Below, one piece after another: positions 7,831 to 38,949 of a stretch of DNA of 64,000 bases. The DNA is from Gordonia sp. ABSL11-1. Its GTDB lineage: Bacteria; Actinomycetota; Actinomycetes; Mycobacteriales; Mycobacteriaceae. Under the pieces are notes generated by a model. The model was not told the DNA's origin, did not search any database, and was given only the letters and a program-made list of their open reading frames with translations. Made by a program: the position numbers and the translations under genes. The stretch spans positions 62,001 to 126,000 of the forward strand of contig NZ_JASXSI010000004.1 of the NCBI RefSeq assembly GCF_030315685.1, written 5' to 3'. Within the stretch, counting starts at the first letter, position 1, and every line of letters begins with the position of its first letter.

Positions 7831-7870
7831 AGGTTATGTTGACATCGCGATGTTGTCAAGAATTATTGAC
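7831..7870 (-). promoter_or_regulatory. Promoter and palindromic operator candidate for the HTH/Clp-N pair
   Basis: Read on the minus strand: TTGACA (7859-7854), 17-bp spacer, TAACCT (7836-7831), close to a housekeeping promoter. Overlapping it are three alternating half-sites, TTGAC (7839-7843), GTCAA (7855-7859) and TTGAC (7866-7870), and a 12-bp palindrome ACATCGCGATGT. The arrangement suggests repressor binding over the promoter. Confidence 0.6.
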
Positions 7871-7895
7871 GATGGCTCTGGGGATGCTTCCGGAC

Positions 7896-7904
7896 TTGTC
7901 CACA
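7896..7904 (+). promoter_or_regulatory. DnaA-box-like TTGTCCACA
   Basis: A single perfect match to the actinobacterial DnaA-box consensus, 51 bp before the AbiEi/DUF559 gene start. Related TCCACAG motifs precede the paralogue at 30422-31312. Function is unproven; one 9-mer can occur by chance. Confidence 0.3.
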
Positions 7905-7954
7905 GATTGTCGTCGCGACCCGTCGTCCGAAGTCGGGGTGTCGACACTGTCCCG

Positions 7955-8812
7955 ATGAAGTACATCGGGGTGCACAGGTTCGCGGAACTGATCGAGGGCG
8001 GGCTCACCCGCAAAGAGATCCGCCGGCAGCTCGCGGACGGAGAGCTCGTACTGCTGCGCCATGACTGGTACGCGGACAAGCGTGCCGACGCGACAACTAG
8101 CGAGGTCGTTCGTGCGGGAGGTGTCGTCGGGTGCCTGACCGCGCTGCGGTACCGCAAGGTGTGGGTGCCCGGGTCGTCGACGACGATCCATCGGCGCGGG
8201 AACTCCCGAGCTCACCGCGCGCCGAGCAAGATCACCTACTGCCGGCAGTACGGACGACCGGAGCCCGAGTACGGGGCCGTCGACGAAGTGCCCATCGCGT
8301 TCCGCCACGCTGTCCGGTGTCTCGACGGCGAAGATCTGGTTGCCGTGTGCGATTCGATCGCCAACCAGAAGCTGATGACCCTCGACGAGATGAGGTCCGA
8401 AATGAGGTCCGCGCCGAAGGCCAAACAGCGTCTGCTCGACAAGTGCGATGCGCGCGCGCAGTCCGGCACGGAGACGATGGTCCGCGTGCGTTTGCGAGCG
8501 CGGCGCCTCAAGGTGCGGGTGCAGGTCGCGATCTCCGGGCTGGGTCGCGTAGACCTCGTCGTCGGCGACCGGCTCATCATCGAGGTCGACAGCGAGGAGT
8601 ACCACCGCACGAAGGAGCAGTACGCCGAGGATCGGCGCCGCGACCGACGCGCGGCCGAATTGGGCTACATCACACTGCGATTCACCTACGCCGCGGTGAC
8701 CACGGATTGGGAGGCCGCGGAGGAGCAGGTGCTCACGATCGTCCGCGAAGGCCGCCACCTCTGGCCCCGCAAGCGGAAGCCGAAAGCCAAGGCACCTGCC
8801 GAGACGGCATGA
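7955..8812 (+). CDS. AbiEi-like HTH plus DUF559/Vsr-like nuclease-fold protein, paralogue A
   Basis: 285 residues. The N-terminal part (about 1-60, LIEGGLTRKEIRRQLADGELVLLRHDWYA) is the winged-helix/AbiEi antitoxin-like region. The C-terminal part resembles the Vsr/DUF559 PD-(D/E)XK fold: ETMVRVRLR, then VDLVVGDRLIIEVDSEEYH, then RRRDRRAAELGYITLRFTY. The acidic pair D...E-V-D and the trailing helix match the fold, but the canonical ExK lysine is replaced. The ATG at 7955 was chosen by alignment with the paralogue at 30422-31312. No toxin partner is adjacent. Its stop codon lies inside repeat copy 2. Such genes are often called type IV antitoxins; true function is unknown. Confidence 0.72.
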   Translation: MKYIGVHRFAELIEGGLTRKEIRRQLADGELVLLRHDWYADKRADATTSEVVRAGGVVGCLTALRYRKVWVPGSSTTIHRRGNSRAHRAPSKITYCRQYGRPEPEYGAVDEVPIAFRHAVRCLDGEDLVAVCDSIANQKLMTLDEMRSEMRSAPKAKQRLLDKCDARAQSGTETMVRVRLRARRLKVRVQVAISGLGRVDLVVGDRLIIEVDSEEYHRTKEQYAEDRRRDRRAAELGYITLRFTYAAVTTDWEAAEEQVLTIVREGRHLWPRKRKPKAKAPAETA

Positions 8813-8878
8813 GGATCACCGCTGACGGGTGGATAACTGGATAATCCAGACAACCACACACCAGCGGTGACGCTCATG
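8808..8878. repeat. ~70-bp nested palindromic repeat, copy 2
   Basis: Arms CATGAGGATCACCGCTG (8808-8824) and CCAGCGGTGACGCTCATG (8861-8878) enclose an inner CTGGATAATCCAG palindrome centred near 8842. This is the most complete copy, with CATGAG/CTCATG termini. The left arm supplies the stop codon of the preceding gene. It sits between convergent genes. Confidence 0.8.
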
Positions 8879-8887
8879 CAGGCGGGG

Positions 8888-9463
8888 CTACGCCCAGTGC
8901 ACCTGAAGGCCGTGGTCGACCGCGAAAGCCAGCGCGGCGTCGTCGTCGAGCACGTCGCCGTCGTCGTCGACGAGGCGCGCGACGACCGCGACCGGTGGGA
9001 GCCCTCCGGCGACAACCAGGTCGACGGCGAGTTCCCAGCATCGGCGGCGTGCGCGGAAGCCGCCGTCGTCGCATCGCACCGGCAGCACATGGCCGGGGCG
9101 GACGAGATCGTCGGCGATGGTCGCCCGGTCGGCGAGCACGCGGAGGGTCCTGGCCCGATCGTGCGCCGAGATCCCCGTCCCGATGCCGGATGCCGCGTCC
9201 ACGGCGACGGTGAACGTGGCGTCGGACCGCTCGGAGGCGAAGACCGGCTGATCCGGGACACGCAGCCGATCCAACAGCCAGGACGGCATGGCTGCGTGAA
9301 TCAGGCCGGAAGACAGACGAATTGCATGATGCAGCGCGACAGCGGTCACCGTGGCCGCCGGAAACGACAGCACCGCACCGTCGGCGTCGACGATGACGGA
9401 TGCCCCGTCGGAGAAGATCTGCGTGTCGTGGTCGGCGGATGCGCGGGTGAGCATGGTCGTCAT
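8888..9463 (-). CDS. RibB-like (3,4-dihydroxy-2-butanone-4-phosphate synthase fold) protein, degenerate
   Basis: 191 residues resembling RibB from TFTVAVDAASGIGTGISAHDRARTLR through RPGHVLPVR to LVVAGGLPPVAVVARLVDDDGDVLDD and a final FAVDHGL. The family's acidic catalytic loop (DDxDRENEGD) is replaced by a VDADGAVLS-like segment, and the GHTEA motif reads RRCWELA, so the His is lost. It is therefore unlikely to make the riboflavin precursor in the usual way. It overlaps the GntR gene by 4 bp (ATGA) and sits in an operon with a flavin reductase. A role in the adjacent flavin-dependent catabolic pathway is inferred. An alternative is a repurposed lyase or isomerase acting on a pathway intermediate. 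Confidence 0.7.
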   Translation of the reverse strand: MTTMLTRASADHDTQIFSDGASVIVDADGAVLSFPAATVTAVALHHAIRLSSGLIHAAMPSWLLDRLRVPDQPVFASERSDATFTVAVDAASGIGTGISAHDRARTLRVLADRATIADDLVRPGHVLPVRCDDGGFRARRRCWELAVDLVVAGGLPPVAVVARLVDDDGDVLDDDAALAFAVDHGLQVHWA

Positions 9464-10146
9464 GGGTCCTCGGTCCTGTGGTGTTCTGCCTCGAGCCCGA
9501 TGAGCAGTGCTTGTCGGCTGGCGCGGACGTGTTCGCGCATGACGCGTTCGGCACTGTCACCGTCCTTGGCGACGATGAGTTCGAGCACGCGATGGTGTTC
9601 GCGGTCGGACTGCAGGGCGCGTCCGGGCTGACTGAGTGAGGTGTGCACCAGTCGCGCATAGGCGAGCTGGTTCATCAAGGTTCGGTAGTGCGCTTCGAGT
9701 TTCTTGTTGTCGGCACCGACGATGAGCAGGTTGTGGAATTCCTCGACCAGCTCGGCGTATCGGGCGCGGTCGTTGCGGGCGACGGCGGCGTCGGCCTCGC
9801 GCAGGTTCTCCTCCATCTGCTCGACCTCCGGGACCCGGCCCCGCTGCGCCAGCAGTCGGGCGGCCGCACCTTCGAGCAGTTCCTTCATCTCGAAGAGCTC
9901 GGTGACCTCGCGTCGCGACGGAGCAGTGACGAATGTGCCCACGCGCGGACGGATCTCGATGAGTCCCTCGGTCTGCAACTGCTTGAAGGCCTCACGCACG
10001 GGTGTGCGGCTGACCCCGAACTCCTCGGCCAGGGCCAGTTCGGAGATGTTCACGCCGGGCAAGACCTTGCCGTCGATGATCCGACGTCGGATCTCGGTGA
10101 CCAGCCGGGCCTGGATCGATCCGTTGCCCGCCCCGTTGACACCCAC
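9460..10146 (-). CDS. GntR-family (FCD) transcriptional regulator
   Basis: 228 residues. The N-terminal winged helix (about 10-75) carries IQARLVTEIRRRIIDGKVLPG and ELALAEEFGVSRTPVREAFKQL, the standard GntR recognition region. The C-terminal all-helical FCD ligand domain (about 85-215) has the Asp/His metal-site pattern, with FHNLL and late DREHHRVLELI. It is the likely local regulator of the catabolic island, repressing until an intermediate binds. TATGCA-containing elements in the divergent intergenic region (12871-13090) are possible operators. It is co-transcribed with the RibB-like gene by a 4-bp overlap. Confidence 0.85.
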   Translation of the reverse strand: MGVNGAGNGSIQARLVTEIRRRIIDGKVLPGVNISELALAEEFGVSRTPVREAFKQLQTEGLIEIRPRVGTFVTAPSRREVTELFEMKELLEGAAARLLAQRGRVPEVEQMEENLREADAAVARNDRARYAELVEEFHNLLIVGADNKKLEAHYRTLMNQLAYARLVHTSLSQPGRALQSDREHHRVLELIVAKDGDSAERVMREHVRASRQALLIGLEAEHHRTEDP

Positions 10147-10178
10147 CGTGGTCCTCCTTCGGTTCGCTGTGCGATGCG

Positions 10179-10697
10179 TCAGCTCAGAGGCGACAGCGCA
10201 TCGCTGTCGAAGAATCTACCTGCGCTGTAGATCATCGGTGCACGGTCGTCGACGTCGGCGTGCAGGACTCGGCAGACGAACAGCGTGTGCGTGGTGGCCT
10301 GCAGACGCTCCCGGATCTCCACCTCCATCCGGGCGCTGCTCCGCGCTATCAGCGGACTGCCGAACGGCCCCGGCGCCCAGTCCAACCCGGCGAACTTGTC
10401 ATCGGACTTCGTGGCGAACACGGAGACGACGTCTAGCTGGCCGACCGAGAGGATGTTGATGGCGAGATTGGTGGCACGGAACAGGCAGTCATGCGTCGAC
10501 GAGGTGCGCTGCACGGCGACCATCACCGTCGGCGGGTCCAGCGAGATGCTGGAGAAGGCGTTGACCGCAAGGCCACGTGGCTTGTCCTCGTCCATCGCTG
10601 TCACCACGGTCACGCCGGTGATGAACTGCCGGTTCACCTGCTTCATGACGTCGACGTCGGGCTGTGCGATCGGGCTCTGAAGGGTCAACGTGATCAC
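10179..10697 (-). CDS. Flavin reductase (HpaC/RutF family)
   Basis: 172 residues of the short-chain NAD(P)H:flavin oxidoreductase family. The FMN-binding core FITGVTVVTAMDEDKPRGLAVNAFSSISLDPPTVMVAVQ is visible at about 26-64, followed by NLAINILS and the C-terminal GRFF. It supplies reduced FMN or FAD to a partner monooxygenase, most likely the luciferase-like enzyme at 16723-17766. The GTG start overlaps the stop of the upstream SnoaL-like gene by 4 bp. Context corresponds to TgnB of the Acinetobacter trigonelline pathway (inference from gene content). Confidence 0.85.
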   Translation of the reverse strand: MITLTLQSPIAQPDVDVMKQVNRQFITGVTVVTAMDEDKPRGLAVNAFSSISLDPPTVMVAVQRTSSTHDCLFRATNLAINILSVGQLDVVSVFATKSDDKFAGLDWAPGPFGSPLIARSSARMEVEIRERLQATTHTLFVCRVLHADVDDRAPMIYSAGRFFDSDALSPLS

Positions 10698-11122
10698 TGA
10701 TCCTGTCCGACGCTGATGATGCCGAGCGCGGTGAGCAATGCGCGTGGATCCCAGGTCACGTACTCGTCGACGATCCGGTCGGCGGCGAAGTGGGCGAAGG
10801 TGGCACCACTGACCGTGACCTCACGGCGAGTGGCCGGCACCCCGAGAAACGAGTGCTGATGGGTACCCCGGCTGTGCCAGCGGATGGCTGCGGTGTCCCC
10901 GTCGACGACGATCTCGTCGATCGTGGTGACGAGTTCGGGGAACGCCAACCGGGTCGCGGTGATGGAGTCCTTGAACTCCTGACGATCCTGGAGCTCGCCG
11001 GAGCTGCCGACCCGGCGGTAATCGGGGCTCAGCAGGTCATCGAGTATCTCCACCTGCCCCCGGTCCCAGGCGGCATCCCAGATCTGGCGGATGCGTCCGG
11101 CGCGATCGATGGTCACGGACAT
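10694..11122 (-). CDS. SnoaL-like / NTF2-fold ester cyclase-type protein
   Basis: 142 residues of the SnoaL/NTF2 cone fold: IRQIWDAAWDRGQVEILDDLLSPDYRR, FKDSITATRLAFPELVTTIDEIVVDGDTAAIRWHSRGTH and VSGATFAHFAADRIVDEYVTWD. Members act as cyclases, hydrolases or isomerases, or have no activity, so the reaction is not predictable. ATG at 11122. It lies between the transporter and flavin reductase genes with a 4-bp overlap to the latter, so it belongs to the same operon. Confidence 0.75.
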   Translation of the reverse strand: MSVTIDRAGRIRQIWDAAWDRGQVEILDDLLSPDYRRVGSSGELQDRQEFKDSITATRLAFPELVTTIDEIVVDGDTAAIRWHSRGTHQHSFLGVPATRREVTVSGATFAHFAADRIVDEYVTWDPRALLTALGIISVGQDQ

Positions 11123-11136
11123 GTCGGCGACTCCTC

Positions 11137-12822
11137 TCACTTCTCGGCCTGCAGGTCTCGCACGGCCGCTCGTGCCGCGACGGCCTCCACACGCAGAGCG
11201 CGATTGTCGGTCAGGAACTCTTTCCAGAAGGCGATGGTGATGCCGGCGATGATCACCAGGAACGGCAGGGAGGCGATGATGACCGTGTTCTGCAGGGCGT
11301 TGAGACCGCCGGCGAGCATCAGGACGATCGAGACGACACCGGTGAGGACACCCCACAGGATCAGCACCCAGCGACGCGGGGTGAGCGATCCGCCCGACGT
11401 CATCATCGACAGTACGTAGGTGTTCGCATCGGCACCCGAGATGAAGAACAACACGACGAGCGCGATCGCGACGATCGAGGTGACCGTGCTGAGCGGGAAA
11501 TGCTCCAGCGTCGCGAAGAACGCACTGTTGAGATCCTCGGCGGTGCGGGCCGCGATGTCGCCGCCCTCGAACATGTCGACGTGGATCGCCGTGCCACCGA
11601 AGACGGTGAACCAGGTGAAGAACACGACACTCGGGACCACCAGCACGCCGACGACGAATCCACGGATGGTGCGGCCCTTGGAGATCCGGGCGAGGAACAC
11701 ACCCACGAAGGCGCCCCAGGACACCCACCACGCCATCATGAAGTACGTCCAGCCCTGCATCCAGGCGAGGTCGCCGAAAGCGCTGCCCTGCAGACTCATC
11801 CGGAAGAAGTCCGTCGCCCAGGTGCCGATCGACTCGATGTAGAGGTTCGCGATGAACACCGCCGGACCCACGATGAGCATGAACACGAACAAGGCGATCG
11901 CGAGACCGGTGCTCGCCTGACTGAGGTACTTGATGCCCTTGTGGACACCAGTCACGGCGGACATCGTGAAGACGGCGGTGACCGCGGCGATGATCAGGAC
12001 CTGCGTGACATTGTTGACCGGAATCCCGAAGAGGCTCGACAGCCCGTTGTTCACCTGCAGCGCACCGAGTCCGAGCGAGGTCGTGGTGCCGAACAGCGTC
12101 GCGAACACGGCGAGGACGTCGATACCCTTGCCGATCGGTCCGTTCACACGCTCACCGAGCAGCGGATAGAACAGCTGGCTGACCAGTGTCCGACGCCCCT
12201 TACAGTAGGTTGAATAGGCGATGGCCAGGCCGACCATGGCGAAGATGGCCCAGGCGTGCAGGCCCCAGTCGAAGTAGGAGTACTGCATGGCACGCACCGC
12301 AGCCTCCGGCGACCCGGGGGCGGCGAGACCACGCGGCGGAGTCGTCAGGTGCGAGATCGGCTCGGCCACGCCGTAGCTGATCAGTCCGATGCCCATCACG
12401 GCGCTCAGGATCATCGCCAGCCACGATGGCGTGCTGAACTCCGGGCGGTCGGTGGGCTTGCCGAGCCGACGGTCGCCCGCCGGACTGAGCGCCAGGAACA
12501 CGAGGAACACCAGGATCGCCAGGGTGACGACCAGGTAGAGCCAGCCGAAGGTCCCGGTCACCCAATCCAACGACGCGGCGGTCACGGTGTTGAGGTTGTC
12601 GGTGAACAGCGTCGCCCACGCGATGAAGATGATCGAGACGCCGGCAGCGGTCCAGAACACCGAACCGAGCCGCCGCGACGGCGGGTGCGCGCGTCCCCCG
12701 GGACTGTCCGCGCGGTCGGTGTCGGTCACGTCGTCGAACACCTCCAGGTCCTCGGTGGCGGGCGGACTGGCGGACTCGGTGAGGAGACCGCCAACGGGCT
12801 CCTTCGACGGACGTTTCGTCAT
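11137..12822 (-). CDS. BCCT-family (betaine/carnitine/choline) transporter
   Basis: 561 residues with about 12 membrane segments after a 50-residue hydrophilic N-terminus. The family signature is clear: the aromatic-rich YFMMAWWVSWGAFVGVFLAR followed by ISKGRTIRGF. VMGIGLISYGVAEP and SYFDWGLHAWAIF are also typical. BCCT carriers import quaternary ammonium zwitterions with Na+ or H+. No long C-terminal regulatory domain is seen, so nutrient uptake is more likely than osmotic control. First gene of the minus-strand half of the island. N-methylpyridinium carboxylates such as trigonelline would fit this family (inference). Confidence 0.9.
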   Translation of the reverse strand: MTKRPSKEPVGGLLTESASPPATEDLEVFDDVTDTDRADSPGGRAHPPSRRLGSVFWTAAGVSIIFIAWATLFTDNLNTVTAASLDWVTGTFGWLYLVVTLAILVFLVFLALSPAGDRRLGKPTDRPEFSTPSWLAMILSAVMGIGLISYGVAEPISHLTTPPRGLAAPGSPEAAVRAMQYSYFDWGLHAWAIFAMVGLAIAYSTYCKGRRTLVSQLFYPLLGERVNGPIGKGIDVLAVFATLFGTTTSLGLGALQVNNGLSSLFGIPVNNVTQVLIIAAVTAVFTMSAVTGVHKGIKYLSQASTGLAIALFVFMLIVGPAVFIANLYIESIGTWATDFFRMSLQGSAFGDLAWMQGWTYFMMAWWVSWGAFVGVFLARISKGRTIRGFVVGVLVVPSVVFFTWFTVFGGTAIHVDMFEGGDIAARTAEDLNSAFFATLEHFPLSTVTSIVAIALVVLFFISGADANTYVLSMMTSGGSLTPRRWVLILWGVLTGVVSIVLMLAGGLNALQNTVIIASLPFLVIIAGITIAFWKEFLTDNRALRVEAVAARAAVRDLQAEK

Positions 12823-13086
12823 GACATACCTCTCTGGGGCGGGTGTTCACCAAAGGCGTTGACCGTCCTCTGGTATGCAACAGGAAGGTAAGAGCGATCA
12901 CAACGGCTGTCAACAGCTACGGCGCCGCGACCTCGAAAATCAGCGATTCGAAACCTGATCGAAACCGTTGTCACACCGTCTTAACTGTGACAATGCGGTC
13001 TTGCAGGACAGAAGAAGACATTCGGGACCATCGGTTCGGACGCCAACTCTTGACCATGTATGCATCGAGGTCTACCGTTCTGTGGC
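12823..13086. promoter_or_regulatory. Divergent control region of the catabolic island
   Basis: 264 bp between the transporter and DUF1185 genes. TTGACC (13050-13055), a 17-bp spacer and TACCGT (13073-13078) form a promoter on the plus strand that would start transcription almost at the ATG at 13087, implying a leaderless mRNA. Similar elements GGTATGCAAC (12872-12881), TGTATGCATC (13057-13066) and GGCATGCAAG (13084-13093) are candidate GntR operators; two of them overlap the promoter or start. TTGTCACA/TGTGACAA-type sequence lies near 12967-12994. Confidence 0.5.
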
Positions 13087-13707
13087 ATGCAAGAGAACGA
13101 ATGTGGCACCGCGTGCGGGATACGCAAAGTGGTCGTCTATCGCGAGCAGATCGTCACTGAATCGGGCGTGGCGCCCGGGCGTCCGGCCCAGCAGGCGACG
13201 GTCGCCGTCGTGCTGCGCAACCCGTGGGCGGGCACCGGGCCGGCGCAGGACCTGGCCGCCGAGGCGCGTCGCATCGCGCCCGTGCTCGCCCGGGTCGTCA
13301 CCGACGAACTGATCGGCGCACTGGGTGACGTCGACGGGATCGAGGCGTTCGGCAAGGCCGCCATCGTGGGGACCGCGGGTGAGATCGAACACGGCGGAGC
13401 CCTCATCCATACACCCTACTTCGGCAATCTGATGCGCGAGATCCTCGAGGGCGAATCGATCATCTGCTTCGCCGACACGCGTGCCGATGCCGGCGAGGCG
13501 CTCGTCGTACCGCTGTGGCACAAGACCGCCGCTGCCACTCGCAGCCATTATCAAACGGTGACCACCCGGGTCTCCGATGCCCCGCGCTCCGACGAACTGG
13601 TCATCGCCGCCGCCGCGTCCACCGGCCCCCGCCCGCATCCGCGGATCGGGGACCGCTCGACCGACCCCGCCGTTTCCCTCGCGACCCTGGAAGGTGCACT
13701 GTGCTGA
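13087..13707 (+). CDS. Amino acid synthesis family (DUF1185) protein 1
   Basis: 206 residues. The core matches the AA_synth/DUF1185 family: IRKVVVYREQIVTESG, ATVAVVLRNPWAGTG, EAFGKAAIVGTAGEIEHGGALIHTPYFGNLMRE and a final RSHYQTVTTRVSDAPRSDELVIAAA. It is paralogous to the next gene, with which it overlaps by 7 bp (GTGCTGA). The family's biochemical activity is not established; the name derives from an old genetic association. A short N-terminal extension with two Cys (ECGTAC) precedes the core. The ATG at 13087 lacks a Shine-Dalgarno, which fits leaderless initiation. Confidence 0.75.
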   Translation: MQENECGTACGIRKVVVYREQIVTESGVAPGRPAQQATVAVVLRNPWAGTGPAQDLAAEARRIAPVLARVVTDELIGALGDVDGIEAFGKAAIVGTAGEIEHGGALIHTPYFGNLMREILEGESIICFADTRADAGEALVVPLWHKTAAATRSHYQTVTTRVSDAPRSDELVIAAAASTGPRPHPRIGDRSTDPAVSLATLEGALC

Positions 13708-14255
13708 AGATCCGTAAGATCGTGACCGTCGTCGAAGAGATCCGGACGGAGGGCGGCCGCGAGGTCAGTCCCGCCGCCCGCGTGGCCATCGTCGCCGCCG
13801 TCATCGAGAACCCCTGGGCAGGTGCCGGTTTCGTCGACGACCTCGGACCCGGAATCGATGCCCACGCCTCCGATCTCGGCGCCCTGCTGGCGCCTTCGGT
13901 CCTGGAGGCGCTCGGCGAGACCGCCGAGGCCTACGGCAAGGCAGCCATCGTCGGACTCGACGGGGAGATCGAACACGGTTCCGGGCTCATCCACACTCTG
14001 AAGTTCGGCGATCACTTCCGCAAGGCGGCGAACGCGACCACCCTGCTGCCCGCTGTCGAGAAGCGCGGTCCCGCAGGCGTTCTCTTCGACATCCCCCTCA
14101 AGCACATCACCGACGCCACGATCCGGTCACATCACCAGACGGTCGAGGTGCGCATCGCCGACGCTCCGCATCCCGACGAGATCGTGATCGCACTGGCGGC
14201 AGCCGCTCAGGGCCGTCCGCAGCAGCGACTCGCCGCCCTGTCCAGCGAGCAGTGA
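13701..14255 (+). CDS. Amino acid synthesis family (DUF1185) protein 2
   Basis: 184 residues, starting at a GTG that overlaps the previous stop. It repeats the family pattern: LKIRKIVTVVEEIRTEGG, VAIVAAVIENPWAGAG, EAYGKAAIVGLDGEIEHGSGLIHTLKFGDHFRKA and TIRSHHQTVEVRIADAPHPDEIVIALA. Conserved Lys (GKAAIVG), Glu-His (EIEHG) and His (LIHT) suggest an active site shared with its paralogue, possibly as a heterodimer. The role is unknown; co-occurrence with ring-opening genes suggests processing of a pathway intermediate (inference). Confidence 0.78.
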   Translation: MLKIRKIVTVVEEIRTEGGREVSPAARVAIVAAVIENPWAGAGFVDDLGPGIDAHASDLGALLAPSVLEALGETAEAYGKAAIVGLDGEIEHGSGLIHTLKFGDHFRKAANATTLLPAVEKRGPAGVLFDIPLKHITDATIRSHHQTVEVRIADAPHPDEIVIALAAAAQGRPQQRLAALSSEQ

Positions 14256-14282
14256 TCTCCCGTCACCGGTAGGAGTTCCATC

Positions 14283-15014
14283 ATGACCACGCCGACGATC
14301 GTCCTGCTCCACGGAGTGGGCCTGGACCACACCATGTGGGATCCGGTCGCGCGCCTGCTCGACGGCGAGTTCGACGTCGTCACACCGGATCTCCCGGGGC
14401 ACGGTGTCCATCCGCCGGCCGCCGCCGGCACGACGCTGGCCGATCTCGCCGACGGCGTGCTGCCGGAGATCCCGTCGGGCTCACACCTCGTCGGCTTCTC
14501 GCTGGGCGCCCTGGTGGCGCAACACATCGCGCGTTTCCATCCGGATGCCGTGTCGTCGGTGACGTCGGTGAGCTCGGTGTGCCGGCGCACCGACGACGAG
14601 AGGGCGGCCGTCCTCGCCCGGTTGCACACCGCCGAACAGGATATCGGCGCGGCGACCGACGCCTCGCTGCAACGGTGGTATCAGGGTACCGACGTGCCGG
14701 CCGAGCTGATCTCACAGACGAGGTCCGTGTTGGAATCCACCGACCCCACCAGTTTCCGCAACTGCTACCGGGTGTTCGCCACCGGCGACGCCGACATCGG
14801 TCCGGAACTGGGTGAGATCGCCGTCCCCGCACTGGCCATCACCGGGGAGAACGATCCGGGCTCGACGCCCGAGATGACGCATCGGCTCGCGCACGCGATT
14901 CCCGGTTGCCGGGAGGTCGTCGTCGCCGGGGCCCGCCACATGATGCCGGTCGAACGTCCTCGGGAGTTCGTCGATCACCTGACCGCCTTCATCGGAGAAC
15001 ACACATATGTCTGA
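14283..15014 (+). CDS. Alpha/beta hydrolase
   Basis: 243 residues with the complete fold: oxyanion region LLHGVGLDHTMW (about 8-19), nucleophile elbow GFSLG (Ser near residue 73), acid region ITGENDPGSTPEM, and catalytic His in GARHMMPVERP. Cofactor-free hydrolases of this type cleave C-N or C-C bonds of ring-opened pyridine derivatives. In the trigonelline pathway TgnD, the hydrolase of the N-methylformamidomethylene succinate, belongs to this superfamily. A comparable role is inferred from neighbours. TAGGAG before the ATG is a good ribosome-binding site. Overlaps the ALDH gene by 8 bp. Confidence 0.82.
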   Translation: MTTPTIVLLHGVGLDHTMWDPVARLLDGEFDVVTPDLPGHGVHPPAAAGTTLADLADGVLPEIPSGSHLVGFSLGALVAQHIARFHPDAVSSVTSVSSVCRRTDDERAAVLARLHTAEQDIGAATDASLQRWYQGTDVPAELISQTRSVLESTDPTSFRNCYRVFATGDADIGPELGEIAVPALAITGENDPGSTPEMTHRLAHAIPGCREVVVAGARHMMPVERPREFVDHLTAFIGEHTYV

Positions 15015-16494
15015 ACACACGAAGCTCGAGCATTTCATCGGCGGCGAACGCGTCGCCCCGAAATCCGGTGAGTACTTCGCGAGCACCAATCCCGCCACCG
15101 GAGAAACACTCTATGAGGCCGCTCGTGGCAACACGGCCGACATCGAGACCGCGATGCAGGCGGCCCGCGCGACATTCGACGATCCGCGCTGGCGTGACCT
15201 CACCCAGACCCGGCGCGGACATCTGCTTCGCAAGCTCGGCGACCTCATCGGCGAGAATGCCGAGGAGCTGGCTCGTTCGGAGTCCCGCGACAACGGAAAA
15301 CTGTTGCGCGAGATGCGCGGTCAGCTCGCCAACCTGCCGGAGTACTACTACTATTACGCCGGCCTCGCGGACAAGATCCACGGCGACGTGGTCCCGACGT
15401 CGGACCGCGCCGTCATCAACTACACCGCACGCGAACCGCTCGGCGTCGTCGGCGCGATCACACCGTGGAACTCCCCGCTGACGCTGACGACGAGCAAGCT
15501 CGCGCCGGCACTGTGCGTGGGGAACACCGTCGTCGTCAAGCCGTCGGAGTACACGTCGGCGACCGTGCTCCGGCTGGCCGAACTCGCCGTCGAGGCCGGG
15601 TTCCCGCCCGGCGCGGTCAACGTGGTCACCGGATTCGGCGCCGAGGCCGGACAGGCCCTCGTCGATCATCCCGGACTGGCCAAGATCTCGTTCACCGGGA
15701 GCACTGCGACCGGATCACGGATCGCTGCGGCCACGGCGTCCCGATTCATCGGCTCCACACTGGAACTGGGCGGCAAGTCACCCAACATCGTCTTCGACGA
15801 CGCCAACGTCGCGAATGCCGCGATGGGTGTGGTCGCGGGAATCTTCGCGGCGGCCGGACAGACCTGCATCGCCGGCAGCCGGGTGTTCGCGCAGCGCGCC
15901 GTCTACGACGAACTGCTCGAACGCGTCACCGAGCGGGCACGGTCGATCCGGATCGGCGATCCGCTCGACGACGCCACCGAGCTCGGACCACTGGCCTTCG
16001 AGGCGCAGCGGGACAAGGTTGCGTCCTATGTCGACATCGGGCGCGACGAGGGTGCCCGGGTGCTCACGGGAGGGAATTCCAGCGACGGCGGTCTCGGCGG
16101 GTACTTCTACGAGCCGACCGTGCTCGTCGACGTCGACAACGACATGCGGGTGGTGCGCGAGGAGATCTTCGGTCCGGTTGCCGCGATCATGCCGTTCGAC
16201 TCCGAGGACGAGGTCCTCCGCCTGGCCAACGACACCGACTACGGTCTGGCGGCAGGCGTGTGGACGTCGAATCTGTCTCGCGCACACCGGATGGCGTCAC
16301 GGCTGGAAGCCGGCACCGTGTGGGTCAACACCTATCGCGCGATGTCGCCGATGTCGCCGCGACAGGGTTTCAAGACCAGCGGCGTCGGCATCGAGCACGG
16401 TACCGAGACGATCAAGGAATACACGCGGCTCAAGAGCGTCTGGATCAACACCAGCGAGGATGCCGTCGCCGACCCGTTCGTGCTGAGGAGCTGA
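15007..16494 (+). CDS. NAD(P)-dependent aldehyde dehydrogenase of the catabolic island
   Basis: 495 residues, full length for the family. GAITPWNSPL at about 149-158, the cofactor loop FTGSTATGSRIA (about 229-240), general base Glu253 in LELGGKSPN and catalytic Cys287 in GQTCIAGSR are all present. Oxidises an aldehyde or hemiacetal to the acid. In the trigonelline scheme an ALDH (TgnC) oxidises the hydroxybutyrolactone intermediate, so this gene could fill that role (inference). It overlaps the hydrolase and is followed after one base by the tautomerase, showing tight operon structure. Confidence 0.88.
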   Translation: MSEHTKLEHFIGGERVAPKSGEYFASTNPATGETLYEAARGNTADIETAMQAARATFDDPRWRDLTQTRRGHLLRKLGDLIGENAEELARSESRDNGKLLREMRGQLANLPEYYYYYAGLADKIHGDVVPTSDRAVINYTAREPLGVVGAITPWNSPLTLTTSKLAPALCVGNTVVVKPSEYTSATVLRLAELAVEAGFPPGAVNVVTGFGAEAGQALVDHPGLAKISFTGSTATGSRIAAATASRFIGSTLELGGKSPNIVFDDANVANAAMGVVAGIFAAAGQTCIAGSRVFAQRAVYDELLERVTERARSIRIGDPLDDATELGPLAFEAQRDKVASYVDIGRDEGARVLTGGNSSDGGLGGYFYEPTVLVDVDNDMRVVREEIFGPVAAIMPFDSEDEVLRLANDTDYGLAAGVWTSNLSRAHRMASRLEAGTVWVNTYRAMSPMSPRQGFKTSGVGIEHGTETIKEYTRLKSVWINTSEDAVADPFVLRS

Positions 16495-16495
16495 C

Positions 16496-16708
16496 ATGCC
16501 GCTCATCGAGATCAGCATCGCCGAAGGGCGGTCACCCGACCAGCTCCGGAGGCTGATGCACGAGGTGCACGATGCGGCCGTCCGCACCGTCGACGCCCTG
16601 CCACAGAACATCCACGTGATCGTGCGGCAGGTGCCGCGCGGTGCGTGGGCATCGAACGACACGACCATCGCCGAGCGCGACGATGCAGCAGCCGCGTCCG
16701 GACGCTGA
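16496..16708 (+). CDS. 4-oxalocrotonate tautomerase family protein
   Basis: 70 residues, the usual size of a 4-OT subunit. Starts MPLIEISIAEGRS, leaving Pro as the N-terminal catalytic base after Met removal, and carries RRLMHEVHDAAVRTV and NIHVIVRQVPRGAWASND, matching the conserved second strand and Arg positions. It interconverts enol and keto forms of unsaturated acids. In this operon it could isomerise a ring-opened dicarboxylate. The start codon lies 1 bp past the ALDH stop. Confidence 0.82.
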   Translation: MPLIEISIAEGRSPDQLRRLMHEVHDAAVRTVDALPQNIHVIVRQVPRGAWASNDTTIAERDDAAAASGR

Positions 16709-16722
16709 GAGAGGAGAATGCG

Positions 16723-17766
16723 ATGAGGTTTTCACTGTTCGTACACATGGAGCGCTGGGACGACAGCGTGAGCCATCGGGAGTTGTTCCAGAACCTCGCC
16801 GAGCTCACCCAGATCGCGGAAGCCGGTGGGTTCAGCACCGTCTGGATCGGCGAACACCACACGATGGAATACGTGATCGCACCGAGCCCGATGCCGCTGC
16901 TCGCCTACCTGGCCGGCCAGACGTCGACGATCCGCCTGGGCGCCGGAACCATCATCGCACCGTTCTGGAATCCCATCCGGGTCGCCGGGGAGACCGCACT
17001 GCTCGATGTCATCAGCAACGGCCGGATGGAGGTCGGTCTCGCCCGCGGCGCCTATCAGTACGAATTCGACCGGATGGCACCGGGTTTGGCTGCCTCCGAC
17101 GGCGGCAAACACCTGCGCGAGCTGGTTCCGGCCGTCCGCAAGCTGTGGCAGGGCGACTACACCCACGACGGGGAGATCTGGCAGTTCCCGACGTCGACGA
17201 GCGTGCCCAAGCCGGTGCAGCGGCCGACGCCGCCGATGTGGGTGGCCGCCCGCGACCCCGACTCGCACGACTTCGCCGTCCGCGAGGGCTGCAACGTGAT
17301 GGTGACCCCGCTGATGAAGGGCGACGAGGAGGTCGTCGACCTCAAGCGCAAGTTCGACACCGCCGTCGCCAATCATCCCGAGGTGCCCCGCCCCGAGCTG
17401 ATGGTGCTGCGCCACACGCACGTCCACTCTCCCGACGATCCCGAGGGATGGCGGCCCGCCGCCGAGGGCGTCTCCAAGTACTACCGGACCTTCGACGCCT
17501 GGTTCGGCAACAAGACCACCCCGGTCGACGGCTTCCTCGCGCCGAGCCCGACGTCGAAGTTCGCCGAACGCCCCGAGTTCGAGCTGGATTCGCTGCATAG
17601 GACGGCGATGATCGGTACACCCGACGAGGTCATCACACGTCTGCACGAGTACCAGGACCTCGGCGTCGACGAGTACAGCTTCTGGATCGACAACGGACTC
17701 TCGCACGACGAGAAGCGGACCTCGCTGGAGATGTTCGTCAAGGAGGTCATGCCGGAGTTCCGGTAG
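16723..17766 (+). CDS. Luciferase-like (LLM) flavin-dependent monooxygenase
   Basis: 347 residues of the bacterial luciferase/LLM TIM-barrel superfamily: FSLFVHMERWDD, FSTVWIGEHHTMEYVIAPSP, TIRLGAGTIIAPFWNPIR, GRMEVGLARGAYQYEF and a final IGTPDEVITRLHEYQDLGVDEYSFW. It needs reduced flavin from a separate reductase, provided by 10179-10697. The N-terminal FxHMERWDD and the YxHDGExWxFPT segment resemble the ring-cleaving TgnA/RutA-type branch (judgement from memory). The ATG at 16723 is preceded by GAGAGGAG. Last gene of the plus-strand half; probably catalyses the first oxidative ring opening of the imported N-heterocycle. Confidence 0.85.
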   Translation: MRFSLFVHMERWDDSVSHRELFQNLAELTQIAEAGGFSTVWIGEHHTMEYVIAPSPMPLLAYLAGQTSTIRLGAGTIIAPFWNPIRVAGETALLDVISNGRMEVGLARGAYQYEFDRMAPGLAASDGGKHLRELVPAVRKLWQGDYTHDGEIWQFPTSTSVPKPVQRPTPPMWVAARDPDSHDFAVREGCNVMVTPLMKGDEEVVDLKRKFDTAVANHPEVPRPELMVLRHTHVHSPDDPEGWRPAAEGVSKYYRTFDAWFGNKTTPVDGFLAPSPTSKFAERPEFELDSLHRTAMIGTPDEVITRLHEYQDLGVDEYSFWIDNGLSHDEKRTSLEMFVKEVMPEFR

Positions 17767-17806
17767 GTTGTCGCGCGGGCTGTGGGCCCGCCGGCGCCAC
17801 GGCCAC

Positions 17807-20389
17807 CTACTCGTCGAGAATCGACTCGCTGATGTTCATCCGCGACGCGCGCATGGCCGGGACGAGGGCACCGACGACACAGAGGGCGCAGGCCACGCCG
17901 ACGAACAGCAGGGTCGTCGGCCGCGGGGAGTAGGCGATGTCGATCGATGTCGTCGCCGACAGGATCTTGTCGGAGAGGTAGTGCAGTGCGCTGCCGAGGA
18001 TCAGGCCGGTGGCCGACCCGATCAGGGCGACACCGGCAGCCTCCGAGACCACCATCCGCGACACGAAGCGCCGCGAGGCACCCATCGCGCGGAGGACGCC
18101 GATCTCACGTCGGCGCTCGATCACCGACAGCAACAAGGTGTTCAGCAGCGCAACCGCCGCCGCGAGGGCGACGATCCACTGGATCGCGACCGTGAACGCG
18201 CCGGCCTGCTGGGCCTGTGCCTGTGCCGCCTCGAGCGCCTCGGTGCCCGACTCGACGTGCACCTTCTGCCCACCTGCCGACGGATTGGCCGTGGCGATCG
18301 CCTCCAACTGCGCCCGGATCTGCCCCTGATCGGCCGCCGGATCGGTCGAGACCTGCAGGTAGGTGTCGGCGGGTCGGTCGAACCAGTCCGACAGCAGGGT
18401 GTTCGACATCGCCGCGGTGCCCGAACCCATCGAGATGTAGTTCACGATCTCGCGGACGACGATCTCCCGGCTCCCGCTCGGGGTCGCCAGACGCAGGGTG
18501 TCGCCGGTCCCCACGTCGAGCGTGCGCGCGAGCACATTCGACAACAAGATCCCGTCACCGTCCAGAACCTGTTGTAGCGCTTGCGGACTCGCCTTCTTCA
18601 CGAACGGCGCCAACGATCCGGGCTCGAGTCCCTGCACGTACACCTTGGCGTCACCGACATTGATGCCCGCCCACTGCGTGCCGACGACCTCGGTGACACC
18701 CGGGATCTTCTCCACCTCGGGCTTGATCGCCGACGACAGCGCGGGACCGGTCGGCAGCCCGCCGCCGACGTCGGTGGCCACGTAGAAGTTCGGATCAGCC
18801 AGTCCGTCAAGAGAATTCGAGATCGATCCGACGAGGTTGTCGAGTGCACCCGACGTACCCATGCCGACGGCGACCGCGACGGCGACGGTCATCAGCGTGG
18901 CCCAGGCACGGCGCGGAGCGCGTTCGGTGTTGACCGCGGCGAGCTGCCCGGGACCGCGGAACCGCCGCGTCAGCATCACGACCAACGCGACCAGCTGGGT
19001 GGTCAGCGCGTAACACAGCAGCAGGCCGCCGACGGCGTAGACGGCACCGGCGAGGATCGCCGGCCTGCCGGGCACCGTCGTCGCGACGAACCAGGACGCG
19101 ATCAGCAGTGCGACGCCGACGACCCCGGAGACCCACACCGCCCGACCGGGTTTCGTCGAACTGTCGTCAATCTCTCCGGCGATCATCGCTTCCACCGGCG
19201 ACACCGCGAACACCGATCGAGCCGCCAGCGATGTCGCGGCGACACAGGCCACCACGCACGCACCGACCGCGACCACGGGGGCGTAACCCGGCAGGTGATA
19301 GCTGACGACGGTGGCCATCGAGTCGGCACTCGCCTCCGGGATGCGACCGATGGCCCACCGCCCGGCGAGGATGCCGATCGGCAGACCGATGAGCCCGCCG
19401 ACGAGGCCGAACAGCGCGGACTCGCCCAGCAGATCGCCGACGAGGTGACCGCGCTTGGCACCGAGCGCGCGCATCATCGCCAACGACTGACGACGGGACG
19501 CGACCGCCATGTTCATGGTGTTGAACACCAGGAATCCGGCGATGACGAGTGAGATGAGCGAGACCAGCAGCGTGGCGTCGCGGGTGACCGACCCCGCCAC
19601 CTCTGCCTGCTTGGCCCGGAACTCGGGATCGACGACGGCCGCTCGTCCGTCGACGACCTGCGATACCTGGGATTTCAGCTGCGGGATGTCGACGCCGGGC
19701 TTGGCGACGATGAGGATCGAGTCGACCTTGCCCTCGCGTGCGACGAGCTTCTGCGCCAGACCGAGGTAGGCGAAGACGAAGTTGCCGTTGTTGAGCGCGG
19801 CCCCCTGGTCACCATCGATGACCGAGATCACCCGCACCGGAACACCGTTGAGGGTGATCTCCTGCCCGGTGCGCAACCCGGTCCCGGCACCGGCGACGAT
19901 GCCGTCCTCGAGGTCGGTCTGATCGATACCCGACGATCCGGACTGCTCCTGCGACACCGCCTTCTGCAGTTCGCCGGACAGCGCGGTAACGCGGAAATCC
20001 GAACCCAGCAAAGCGATTCTGCGGTCGTCGATGACGACGGAGTCGCGGATCAGCGGCACCACCGACTTCGCGTCCGGCACGTCACCGCGGATGTCGCCGG
20101 CGATCTGGGCGTCGATGCCGGAATCGGCGATCGCGGTCACCTCGACCTGGGCGGTCCCGGAGATCGCCGCGTTCACCTGCCGGACCGACTCGGTGAGCGA
20201 ACCGTACAGCCCGAGCACCGAGATGAGCAGCGCCGACGCGACCACCACGACGAGCAGCGACGTGGTCACCCGCAGTCGATGCGTCCGGATCTCACGCAGG
20301 TTGAGGACGCGGATGCGGGAGAACCCGGCGGCGACGGAACGGATCGGACCGGCCCGCCGGGCAACCGGCCTCGACGACGGTTCGCTCAC
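17807..20389 (-). CDS. FtsX/MacB-type ABC transporter permease
   Basis: 860 residues. An N-terminal membrane helix (about 38-65) is followed by an extracytoplasmic domain. A first FtsX core (about 280-400) contains the AMMRALGAKRGHLVGDLLGES coupling segment. A middle hydrophobic block follows, then a second extracytoplasmic domain, and a second FtsX core near the C-terminus has IGVLRAMGASRRFVSRMVVSEA. This duplicated layout is typical of actinobacterial lipoprotein/antimicrobial export permeases. It overlaps the ATPase gene by 4 bp, giving a complete exporter. Substrate unknown. Convergent with the monooxygenase gene. Confidence 0.88.
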   Translation of the reverse strand: MSEPSSRPVARRAGPIRSVAAGFSRIRVLNLREIRTHRLRVTTSLLVVVVASALLISVLGLYGSLTESVRQVNAAISGTAQVEVTAIADSGIDAQIAGDIRGDVPDAKSVVPLIRDSVVIDDRRIALLGSDFRVTALSGELQKAVSQEQSGSSGIDQTDLEDGIVAGAGTGLRTGQEITLNGVPVRVISVIDGDQGAALNNGNFVFAYLGLAQKLVAREGKVDSILIVAKPGVDIPQLKSQVSQVVDGRAAVVDPEFRAKQAEVAGSVTRDATLLVSLISLVIAGFLVFNTMNMAVASRRQSLAMMRALGAKRGHLVGDLLGESALFGLVGGLIGLPIGILAGRWAIGRIPEASADSMATVVSYHLPGYAPVVAVGACVVACVAATSLAARSVFAVSPVEAMIAGEIDDSSTKPGRAVWVSGVVGVALLIASWFVATTVPGRPAILAGAVYAVGGLLLCYALTTQLVALVVMLTRRFRGPGQLAAVNTERAPRRAWATLMTVAVAVAVGMGTSGALDNLVGSISNSLDGLADPNFYVATDVGGGLPTGPALSSAIKPEVEKIPGVTEVVGTQWAGINVGDAKVYVQGLEPGSLAPFVKKASPQALQQVLDGDGILLSNVLARTLDVGTGDTLRLATPSGSREIVVREIVNYISMGSGTAAMSNTLLSDWFDRPADTYLQVSTDPAADQGQIRAQLEAIATANPSAGGQKVHVESGTEALEAAQAQAQQAGAFTVAIQWIVALAAAVALLNTLLLSVIERRREIGVLRAMGASRRFVSRMVVSEAAGVALIGSATGLILGSALHYLSDKILSATTSIDIAYSPRPTTLLFVGVACALCVVGALVPAMRASRMNISESILDE

Positions 20390-32408: not shown

Positions 32409-33916
32409 GCGCCGGCGCCCAACATCATCAGCAGCAGCTCGGCGCGCGTCCGGGCATCCGACAGATCCACCTCGAGCATGTCCTCGATTCGTTCGATCCG
32501 GTGCCGCAGGGTATGCCGGTGTACGCCTTGCGCGGCAGCGGCCACACCCCAGTTGCCGTTGGCCTCGAGGTAGGCGAGCAGGCTCTCCCGTAGGGCGGTG
32601 CCGTGGTCGGCATCGTGGTCGAGCACCGGCCGGAGCCGTTGGTCGAAGGCGTCGTTGAGCGCGCGGCGCACCGGGTCGATCGCCAGCAGTGACCGGCTGC
32701 CGTGCAGGTCGACCATCTGTCCGACGGCGGCCGACCGGCAGGCCAACCGGGCCTGCCGCACCGACTCGCCGACATCCCGTGCGAGGGTCACCGACCCGAT
32801 GCCCCCCGACACCGGCGCGGTCGCATTCAACATGGTCAGCAGCCCGGCGGCGAGGTCGGTGCGGTCGTCACCGCGAAGCACCGCGATGACGTCGGGGCCG
32901 TCGCGGTGCACGAACACCGGACGCCAGCGATGTTCCAGTTCGTCGACGAGGCGCCTGCGGCCGTGGGTGGCGGCGTCGGCATCGGTGAAGGCGAACGCGA
33001 CCGCGCGGACGCGTCCCGACGGATCGGCGGCCCGACCGAGGATCCGGCGCAGTCCGGGCCCGACCGTGCTCGAGCCGGCGGGGTCCATGGCCAGTGCGAG
33101 CACATCGTCGTGGACGTCGGCGACGTCGCGCGACACCTGACGCGGTGCGGCGTGCTCGATGGCGAGCAGGGAGATGGCGTGCCCGAGCAGCATGCGCTCG
33201 ACGTCATCGAGCGCGATCGGTCCGACGACACCGAGATGCCCATAGGTGCGGCCGCCCGATCCGATCCGCGCGACCGTGATCGTCGCGGTGCCCGTGACAC
33301 GGACGGCCCCGGCCGACGCCGGGTCGCGCATCACGAGGTCGCGGATCCGGTTGAGATCGGCGGTGGCGATGGTGCGGGGAGCCGTGGCGACCACGGCCAG
33401 ACCGGTGTCGAGGAGGACCACATCATGACTCACCGCGTCGGCGAGTTCACGGACGAGAGCCGCCGATCCGCCCGACGCGGCGGCCCGGGTCATCCGCGGC
33501 TGCGCCTTGGTGGCCGACACGAGTCGAGCCGAACGCTGTGCGGCAATTTGGTCGAGCACCGTTCGCGTGATCGCCGAGAACGGGACCGGCAGCGGCACCT
33601 CGAACAGTGGCAGCCCGAGGTCGTCGGCGACCTCCGACATCTCCGGCGGCACCGCGTCGAACCCGAAACCGACGCCGAATCCGACCGCCGCGACACCGAC
33701 CTCGTCGAGGTGGCGGAGGTAGTCGCGGCGCAGGTCGGGGTCGTCGGCGAGTCGCATGCCGGTGGTCAGCAGGACCTCCCCGCCGGACAGCCACTCGCCC
33801 GCGTTCACCAGCTCCGACGACACCGCACAGTCCAGCTGTCGGCCGAGGCCCGCGGCACCCCCGCGCAGGGCGAGCTCCAGCCGGCGCTGGGCCATCAACC
33901 ACCGCACGGTCGTCAC
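32405..33916 (-). CDS. PucR-family transcriptional regulator
   Basis: 503 residues. The N-terminal PucR-like ligand region (about 10-130) has GEWLSGGEVLLTTGMRL and GVAAVGFGVGFGFDAVPPEM. A GGDEF-like middle domain comes next, and the C-terminal HTH_30 has LLAYLEANGNWGVAAAAQGVHRHTLRHRIERIEDML. PucR proteins activate purine, GABA or amine catabolism genes. It is divergent from the amine-degradation operon starting at 34062, so it is its probable regulator. It overlaps the SGNH lipoprotein gene by 4 bp. Confidence 0.85.
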   Translation of the reverse strand: MTTVRWLMAQRRLELALRGGAAGLGRQLDCAVSSELVNAGEWLSGGEVLLTTGMRLADDPDLRRDYLRHLDEVGVAAVGFGVGFGFDAVPPEMSEVADDLGLPLFEVPLPVPFSAITRTVLDQIAAQRSARLVSATKAQPRMTRAAASGGSAALVRELADAVSHDVVLLDTGLAVVATAPRTIATADLNRIRDLVMRDPASAGAVRVTGTATITVARIGSGGRTYGHLGVVGPIALDDVERMLLGHAISLLAIEHAAPRQVSRDVADVHDDVLALAMDPAGSSTVGPGLRRILGRAADPSGRVRAVAFAFTDADAATHGRRRLVDELEHRWRPVFVHRDGPDVIAVLRGDDRTDLAAGLLTMLNATAPVSGGIGSVTLARDVGESVRQARLACRSAAVGQMVDLHGSRSLLAIDPVRRALNDAFDQRLRPVLDHDADHGTALRESLLAYLEANGNWGVAAAAQGVHRHTLRHRIERIEDMLEVDLSDARTRAELLLMMLGAGA

Positions 33917-34061
33917 ACCGCCACCCTACCCATCCATGGACATAGTGGAGCGATCTACGAAAGTGCTTGTACAGATTGGCAGGCCACGTCCGGGCGTCCG
34001 GAGGCGAACACTGGGGTCTGAACCGACAATCCACCACCGCACCATCGCGAGGGCCAGCACC

Positions 34062-35471: not shown

Positions 35472-35496
35472 CGAGTCCGATCGAAGTGAGGCGACG

Positions 35497-36846: not shown

Positions 36847-36946
36847 CGCCCACGCCAGACGGCCACCCGCCACCCTTGCCCGACCAGTCCTGCCCGCCCG
36901 CACACCCGTCGACCTCCCGCCCGCCAACCCGTGAGGAGTTCCACCG

Positions 36947-38899: not shown

Positions 38900-38949
38900 C
38901 GCCGCGCCGTCCACACCCACACCCGAAACACGAAAAGGTGAGAACCCGC

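Follow-up and report, generated by a model that had tools for sequence, protein, structure and literature searches.

A probable trigonelline-type catabolic island, accessory and self-regulated, in Gordonia sp. ABSL11-1

A 64,000-nucleotide stretch of the Gordonia sp. ABSL11-1 genome (contig NZ_JASXSI010000004.1, positions 62,001 to 126,000; called the window below, the whole genome being 5.7 Mb in 121 contigs) holds two divergent operons that probably constitute a trigonelline (Tgn)-type catabolic island, accessory and with regulation of its own. The trigonelline degradation genes of Acinetobacter baylyi ADP1 form the cluster tgnABCDEF. Assignment of the island to the ring-opening type is well supported, and it appears to be an actinobacterial branch of the Tgn pathway with conserved additions of its own; trigonelline is the likeliest substrate, at about even chances, and another N-methylpyridinium betaine a possible one. 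According to PMC8269262, ring opening by TgnA and TgnB starts bacterial trigonelline degradation. An original prediction, made from the DNA letters, had named a BCCT transporter, a flavin reductase, a luciferase-like monooxygenase (LLM), an aldehyde dehydrogenase (ALDH), an alpha/beta hydrolase, a tautomerase, two DUF1185 proteins, a SnoaL-like protein, a RibB-like protein and a GntR regulator, and every one of these genes is present, each with a Pfam assignment. Both components of the two-component monooxygenase that it described were found, although they are not placed together: the flavin reductase lies on the minus arm and the LLM oxygenase on the plus arm.

Comparisons were made with the cluster on an Acinetobacter sp. 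PK01 plasmid (NZ_CP094644), in which RefSeq names tgnA, tgnB and tgnC, and which also contains a DUF1185 protein and a hydrolase, both under generic names, a GntR regulator, a cytosine permease and a succinic semialdehyde dehydrogenase (SSADH). The window's LLM is 50% identical to the annotated PK01 TgnB over 346/347 residues. Luciferase-like matches in the Gordonia genome number 51 at E 1e-20 or better; among the 30 loci compared, one of them the window's own, a TgnB-family profile (38 proteins, the window's included) gave 663.6 bits for the window LLM and at most 77.0 for the other 29, and Acinetobacter TgnB alone as query gave 415.7 bits (417 in a separate comparison) and at most 66.8 bits, respectively. 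Three of the 120 LLM relatives among the matches listed carry the JGI name 'flavin-dependent trigonelline monooxygenase, oxygenase component', the others being generic or nameless. The enzyme scores in the TgnB family, as a separate branch, and not in an unrelated clade; the two branches (27 and 8 rows) have 118 near-invariant residues in common, two gap columns of the printed 120 being left out.

The remaining components are related to the reference cluster to differing degrees. The ALDH is 45% identical to its PK01 counterpart, the DUF1185 proteins 41% (copy 1) and 44%, and the flavin reductase 38% to Acinetobacter TgnA over 146 residues of the reductase domain. With a profile built from five proteobacterial cluster hydrolases, which are TgnD by position and without a RefSeq name, the window hydrolase scored 149.6 bits and 35 actinobacterial cluster open reading frames (ORFs) 120-169 bits; the highest score for a non-cluster hydrolase in the loci was 67. 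The predicted Tgn resemblance stands well above background for oxygenase, hydrolase and DUF1185, is clear and less specific for the reductase, and is not separable for the ALDH. The view that DUF1185 proteins lie outside the described pathway was wrong, because PMC7913881 calls a DUF1185-type protein homologous to TgnF, which it describes as stimulating TgnE-dependent oxidation of succinic semialdehyde in A. baylyi. The family is duplicated here: two PF06684 proteins were found in the genome, both in the island, and one copy retains the fourth conserved histidine, which the other lacks.

In overall composition the island resembles the Acinetobacter tgn cluster in having a TgnB-type LLM, a flavin reductase, an ALDH, an alpha/beta hydrolase, DUF1185 (the TgnF family) and a GntR-family regulator, although the two regulators are alike over 78 residues only. 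It differs in its LLM, which belongs to a sister branch, in having two TgnF-like proteins, an added tautomerase and a short reductase paired with SnoaL, in a BCCT protein that replaces the cytosine-permease-type transporter, and in its divergent arrangement, which carries two palindromes; an SSADH was not found among the island genes.

The same gene set recurs at other loci, which were taken from the best 80 of 575 LLM relatives, a set leaning to close kin (31 actinobacterial, 49 gammaproteobacterial). Hydrolase, ALDH and DUF1185 copy 2 occur in 31/31 actinobacterial loci, and DUF1185 copy 1, reductase and SnoaL in 30/31, the remaining locus (L066) being cut by a contig end. GntR was found in 29, the tautomerase was detected in 26, and BCCT, NCS1 permease and RibB-family genes were present in 19, 13 and 4, respectively. 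This conservation of gene arrangement is more than chance. SnoaL, tautomerase and RibB-like protein had been regarded as extras; the first two prove to be conserved actinobacterial parts, while the RibB-like protein is optional. In L028, L037, L064 and L075 (4/31), as well as in plasmid locus L001, SnoaL and reductase are fused, and their occurrence as one protein in five loci is an argument for joint action of SnoaL and the reductase.

The same core, including DUF1185, was also found in Sinorhizobium, Mesorhizobium, Ruegeria, Burkholderia and Klebsiella. A cluster on Sinorhizobium meliloti pSymA, between noeB and nifT, has DUF1185, hydrolase, flavin reductase, LLM and ALDH in one run, and differs in having a single DUF1185 gene, an ABC importer and a NIPSNAP protein; its LLM is 51% identical. 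A reference title places trigonelline genes in the symbiotic region of pSym. The cluster on Arthrobacter dokdonellae pDCT5 (L001) matches the plus-strand order, including both DUF1185 genes and the tautomerase, with an LLM 78% identical, and differs in its SnoaL-reductase fusion, in the cytosine permease, riboflavin kinase, NUDIX and SSADH genes alongside, and in that the palindrome was not found there. In Mesorhizobium, a 1.8-kb gene annotated as alpha/beta hydrolase (L003:6205-8004) has a match to the rhizobial flavin reductase as well, which makes hydrolase and reductase look fused.

The island is extra DNA at a variable chromosomal site. Matches to the left flanking gene, with a Clp_N domain, end at 7870-7874, and those to the right flanking FtsX gene begin at 17807-17809. 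When the insertion site was fetched from four relatives without the LLM, the Clp_N-to-FtsX gap was 42, 98 and 38 bp in L142, L144 and L146, and L143 (relative G636) held a different 4.8-kb stretch (L143:4572-9338), which suggests that the site may collect accessory DNA. The label of island was therefore apt: the site is empty in three of four relatives and otherwise occupied in the fourth. A TgnB-type LLM was found in 2/59 genomes of the genus and in 3/296 phylum-wide, its own included in both counts, and the ABC gene adjoining the island is present in 24/26 genus genomes searched. The closest LLM relative bearing an organism name, among the matches listed, is from Gordonia polyisoprenivorans (90%). 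The island genes have counterparts, 67-90% identical, in another member of the genus (G664, locus L145), where both palindromes and the degenerate RibB-like gene are likewise present; its fetched flanks differ from those of the window, and SnoaL and the first DUF1185 gene have no BCCT gene between them. No integrase was seen among the island genes scanned against Pfam, and the two ORFs scanned in the leftmost 1 kb or so (7875-8887) gave no Pfam match.

Table 1. Features of the island and its control region (window coordinates)
Feature	Position	Strand	Remarks
Accessory island, ends approximate	7875-17806	.	three relatives lack it between the same flanking gene pair
RibB-like protein	8888-9463	minus	PF00926, E 2.9e-37; usual acidic active-site loop and GHTEA motif absent
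GntR/FCD regulator, GTG start	9460-10146	minus	PF00392, PF07729
Flavin reductase, TgnA-like reductase domain	10179-10697	minus	PF01613, E 6.4e-37
SnoaL-like protein, coupled to flavin reductase	10694-11122	minus	PF07366
BCCT betaine-type transporter	11137-12822	minus	PF02028, E 5.1e-178
Palindrome A, operator-like, CTCTGGTATGCAACAG	12868-12883	.	beside -10-like box of BCCT arm
Promoter-like sequence, minus-strand operon	12885-12913	minus	TTGACA - 17 nt - TACCTT; read from sequence
Promoter-like sequence, plus-strand operon	13050-13078	plus	TTGACC - 17 nt - TACCGT; read from sequence
Palindrome B, operator-like, CTGTGGCATGCAAGAG	13080-13095	.	holds start codon (13087) of first plus-strand gene
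DUF1185/AA_synth copy 1, TgnF-like	13087-13707	plus	PF06684 (frame scanned: 13060-13707)
DUF1185/AA_synth copy 2, TgnF-like, overlapping copy 1	13701-14255	plus	PF06684
Alpha/beta hydrolase, TgnD-like by position and profile	14283-15014	plus	
ALDH in TgnC position	15007-16494	plus	PF00171
Small tautomerase, Pro immediately after start Met	16496-16708	plus	PF01361, E 1.2e-14
Luciferase-like (LLM) FMN-dependent oxygenase, TgnB-like	16723-17766	plus	

Several neighbouring gene ends overlap or almost touch, an arrangement that is operon-like (Table 1). The divergent control region that had been predicted is borne out by promoter-like sequences that are mirror images of each other and by a conserved palindrome in each arm, the 10-bp cores of which (12871-12880 and 13083-13092) each lie 4 nt past a -10-like box. 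Sites of the motif TTGCATGCAA (at least 8/10 matching) were sought around the start of DUF1185 copy 1 in 32 loci, the window and L145 included. Two or more were found in 25/32 loci, as compared with a mean of 0.11 and a maximum of 2 in control windows (200 draws, same loci), a difference whose significance is somewhat overstated because the motif was taken from the data, though the gap is large; L026 and L052 have one site each. At no more than one mismatch, the 16-bp palindrome, searched with a pattern built from the two window sites themselves, occurs twice in the genome, both times here, while a reversed control pattern occurs three times per strand. Since palindrome B contains the ATG at 13087, the first DUF1185 gene is probably leaderless, and it most likely starts at this codon rather than at 13060. 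The island's own GntR/FCD protein is the presumed ligand of the palindromes and a probable repressor of both arms.

These components can be assembled into a putative route. The BCCT protein would import an N-methylpyridinium carboxylate; in alignments with solved BetP and a trimethylamine transporter it keeps Trp-containing segments (DWGLHAW, AWWVSW), which we take to be the cation-binding aromatic box of BCCT transporters and which on that assumption support a quaternary substrate. The small flavin reductase and its SnoaL partner would supply FMNH2, with which, and O2, the LLM oxygenase would cleave the pyridinium ring next to the nitrogen. The resulting aldehyde or lactol would be oxidized by the ALDH (the RefSeq annotation of the PK01 cluster gives the name of TgnC's substrate), and the alpha/beta hydrolase would split an N-formyl-N-methyl enamide. 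The tautomerase probably acts on an enol or E/Z intermediate, and the TgnF-like pair probably assembles into a hetero-oligomer assisting late steps. The end products of trigonelline degradation are reportedly methylamine, formate, CO2 and succinic semialdehyde, according to a 2018 paper, and here the last of these would be finished by an SSADH encoded outside the island. In the proposed control circuit, GntR would bind one palindrome per start site and repress both arms until substrate or an intermediate arrives.

An SSADH-like gene at approximately 38.9-40.4 kb of the window, about 21 kb from the island, could finish the route; it is 43% identical to the Acinetobacter SSADH and scores 528 bits against a curated cut-off of 646 for the SSADH model. 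It belongs to an amine cluster (33756-40419) together with genes for an aminobutyraldehyde dehydrogenase, a class-III aminotransferase and a copper amine oxidase. The palindrome search gave no site at the SSADH-like gene or the amine cluster.

Several results weigh against a trigonelline-type assignment, besides the derivation of the motif from the data. In a tree of 38 LLM rows, the window's branch is split from the annotated-TgnB branch (100/99), with L092, L095 and L101 falling between them, two of these on long branches, and 26 residues are diagnostic between the branches, some of them adjacent to the conserved EHH and ARGA segments; because of this separation and these residues, the substrate may differ from trigonelline. 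The window reductase is without the C-terminal half of TgnA, and the hydrolase is just 29% identical to that of the PK01 cluster. The ALDH profile gave 546.2 bits for the island's ALDH and 541.5 for another ALDH of the genome, and on sequence this enzyme is not diagnostic for the Tgn pathway. No TgnE-type SSADH was found in the island, whose sole ALDH is the one in the TgnC position, and no TTGCATGCAA sites were found in the loci with fused reductases (L001, L028, L037, L064 and L075). Furthermore, the stretches fetched for the 49 gammaproteobacterial loci, mostly from Pseudomonas, hold DUF1185 in 5 and hydrolase plus ALDH in 6. Pseudomonas locus L033, which belongs to the window's LLM branch, contains an LLM with a flavin reductase, an isochorismatase-like hydrolase and NCS1 permeases (L033:9297-13484 and 17720-18736), and may represent a related but different N-heterocycle route. 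Its content, and the small number of gammaproteobacterial loci with DUF1185, hydrolase and ALDH, suggest that the LLM branch may serve more than one route. A gene resembling a haem-dependent oxidative N-demethylase lies nearby in L033. In favor of the assignment, however, when 15 gammaproteobacterial genomes with this LLM branch were searched, a DUF1185 gene was found in all of them, 88-100% identical to that of L040.

Part of this evidence would suit a pathway of the same type that acts on another N-heterocyclic betaine (homarine, N-methylpyridinium or a substituted trigonelline), in which intermediates not formed from trigonelline would be handled by the tautomerase, SnoaL and the second TgnF. 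This alternative is possible, if clearly the less probable: the separate LLM branch with its diagnostic residues, the extra conserved genes of the actinobacterial loci and the variation in transporters (BCCT 19/31, NCS1 13/31) are in its favor, while SSADH-type genes beside L001, L012, L064 and L080 fit succinic semialdehyde as the end product, and the hydrolases and ALDHs of gammaproteobacterial branch members score between both sets. In addition, 46 of the genomes behind the 80 loci were searched, and each had exactly one TgnB-type LLM at E 1e-50 or better, with 49-54% identity to Acinetobacter TgnB; none of the 46 held both branches, which fits, though it does not prove, replacement by an enzyme with the same job more than an added function. 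For homarine, PMC8269262 holds that steric reasons make it unlikely in TgnAB. If, as may tentatively be proposed, the LLM branch opens another aromatic betaine and the paired TgnF-like and SnoaL-reductase proteins are catalytic, enzymes and steps not yet described would be involved.

It is very unlikely that the island encodes a pathway with no relation to Tgn, whether ring-opening or oxidative (pyrimidine Rut-like, alkanesulfonate or long-chain alkane), that has only recruited similar enzyme families. The Pfam families are all broad, the ALDH does not discriminate, and among the NCBIfam models shown no equivalog exceeded its cut-off for the 10 proteins scanned; yet the matches of LLM, hydrolase and DUF1185 to the tgn set clearly exceed background, and the RutF and alkanesulfonate models fall far under their cut-offs. 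A Rut-type system was considered and rejected, with the RutF model at 63.4 bits against a cut-off of 254.75 and no isochorismatase among the island genes scanned. Least probable of all is a betaine-osmolyte scavenger working through BCCT only, with the enzymes a decaying remnant, since, for all the common role of BCCT proteins in osmoprotection and the motif loss in the RibB-like protein, the frames are open along their full length, the same genes recur in distant genera, and the enzymes are retained although BCCT is present in only 19/31 loci.

A trigonelline-type island would be of broader interest, as plant and marine osmolytes include trigonelline and its isomers, whose carbon and nitrogen are put back into the cycle by ring opening. 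Some Actinobacteria (Mycolicibacterium, Streptomyces, Nocardioides and others) appear to have a coherent, separately regulated version of this pathway, and DUF1185, still annotated 'amino acid synthesis', travels with ring opening. The pair of 16-bp palindromes makes induction testable by a simple reporter.

The description of the RibB-like protein as degenerate was confirmed at motif level: in alignments, the acidic loop, which reads DDEDRENEGD in intact homologues, and the GHTEA motif, presumably the catalytic motifs of DHBP synthase (RibB), are both replaced; the protein probably does something else. It is nonetheless conserved, with the same loss, in L145 (68% identical) and L007. The motifs are partly altered in L024 and L026, and in L052 and 7/49 gammaproteobacterial loci a homologue that has both of them is found close to the cluster. 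Riboflavin kinase and NUDIX genes adjoin the Arthrobacter pDCT5 cluster (L001:3881-4830), which, together with the RibB-family genes near other clusters, suggests that a dedicated flavin supply is a recurring theme in their vicinity.

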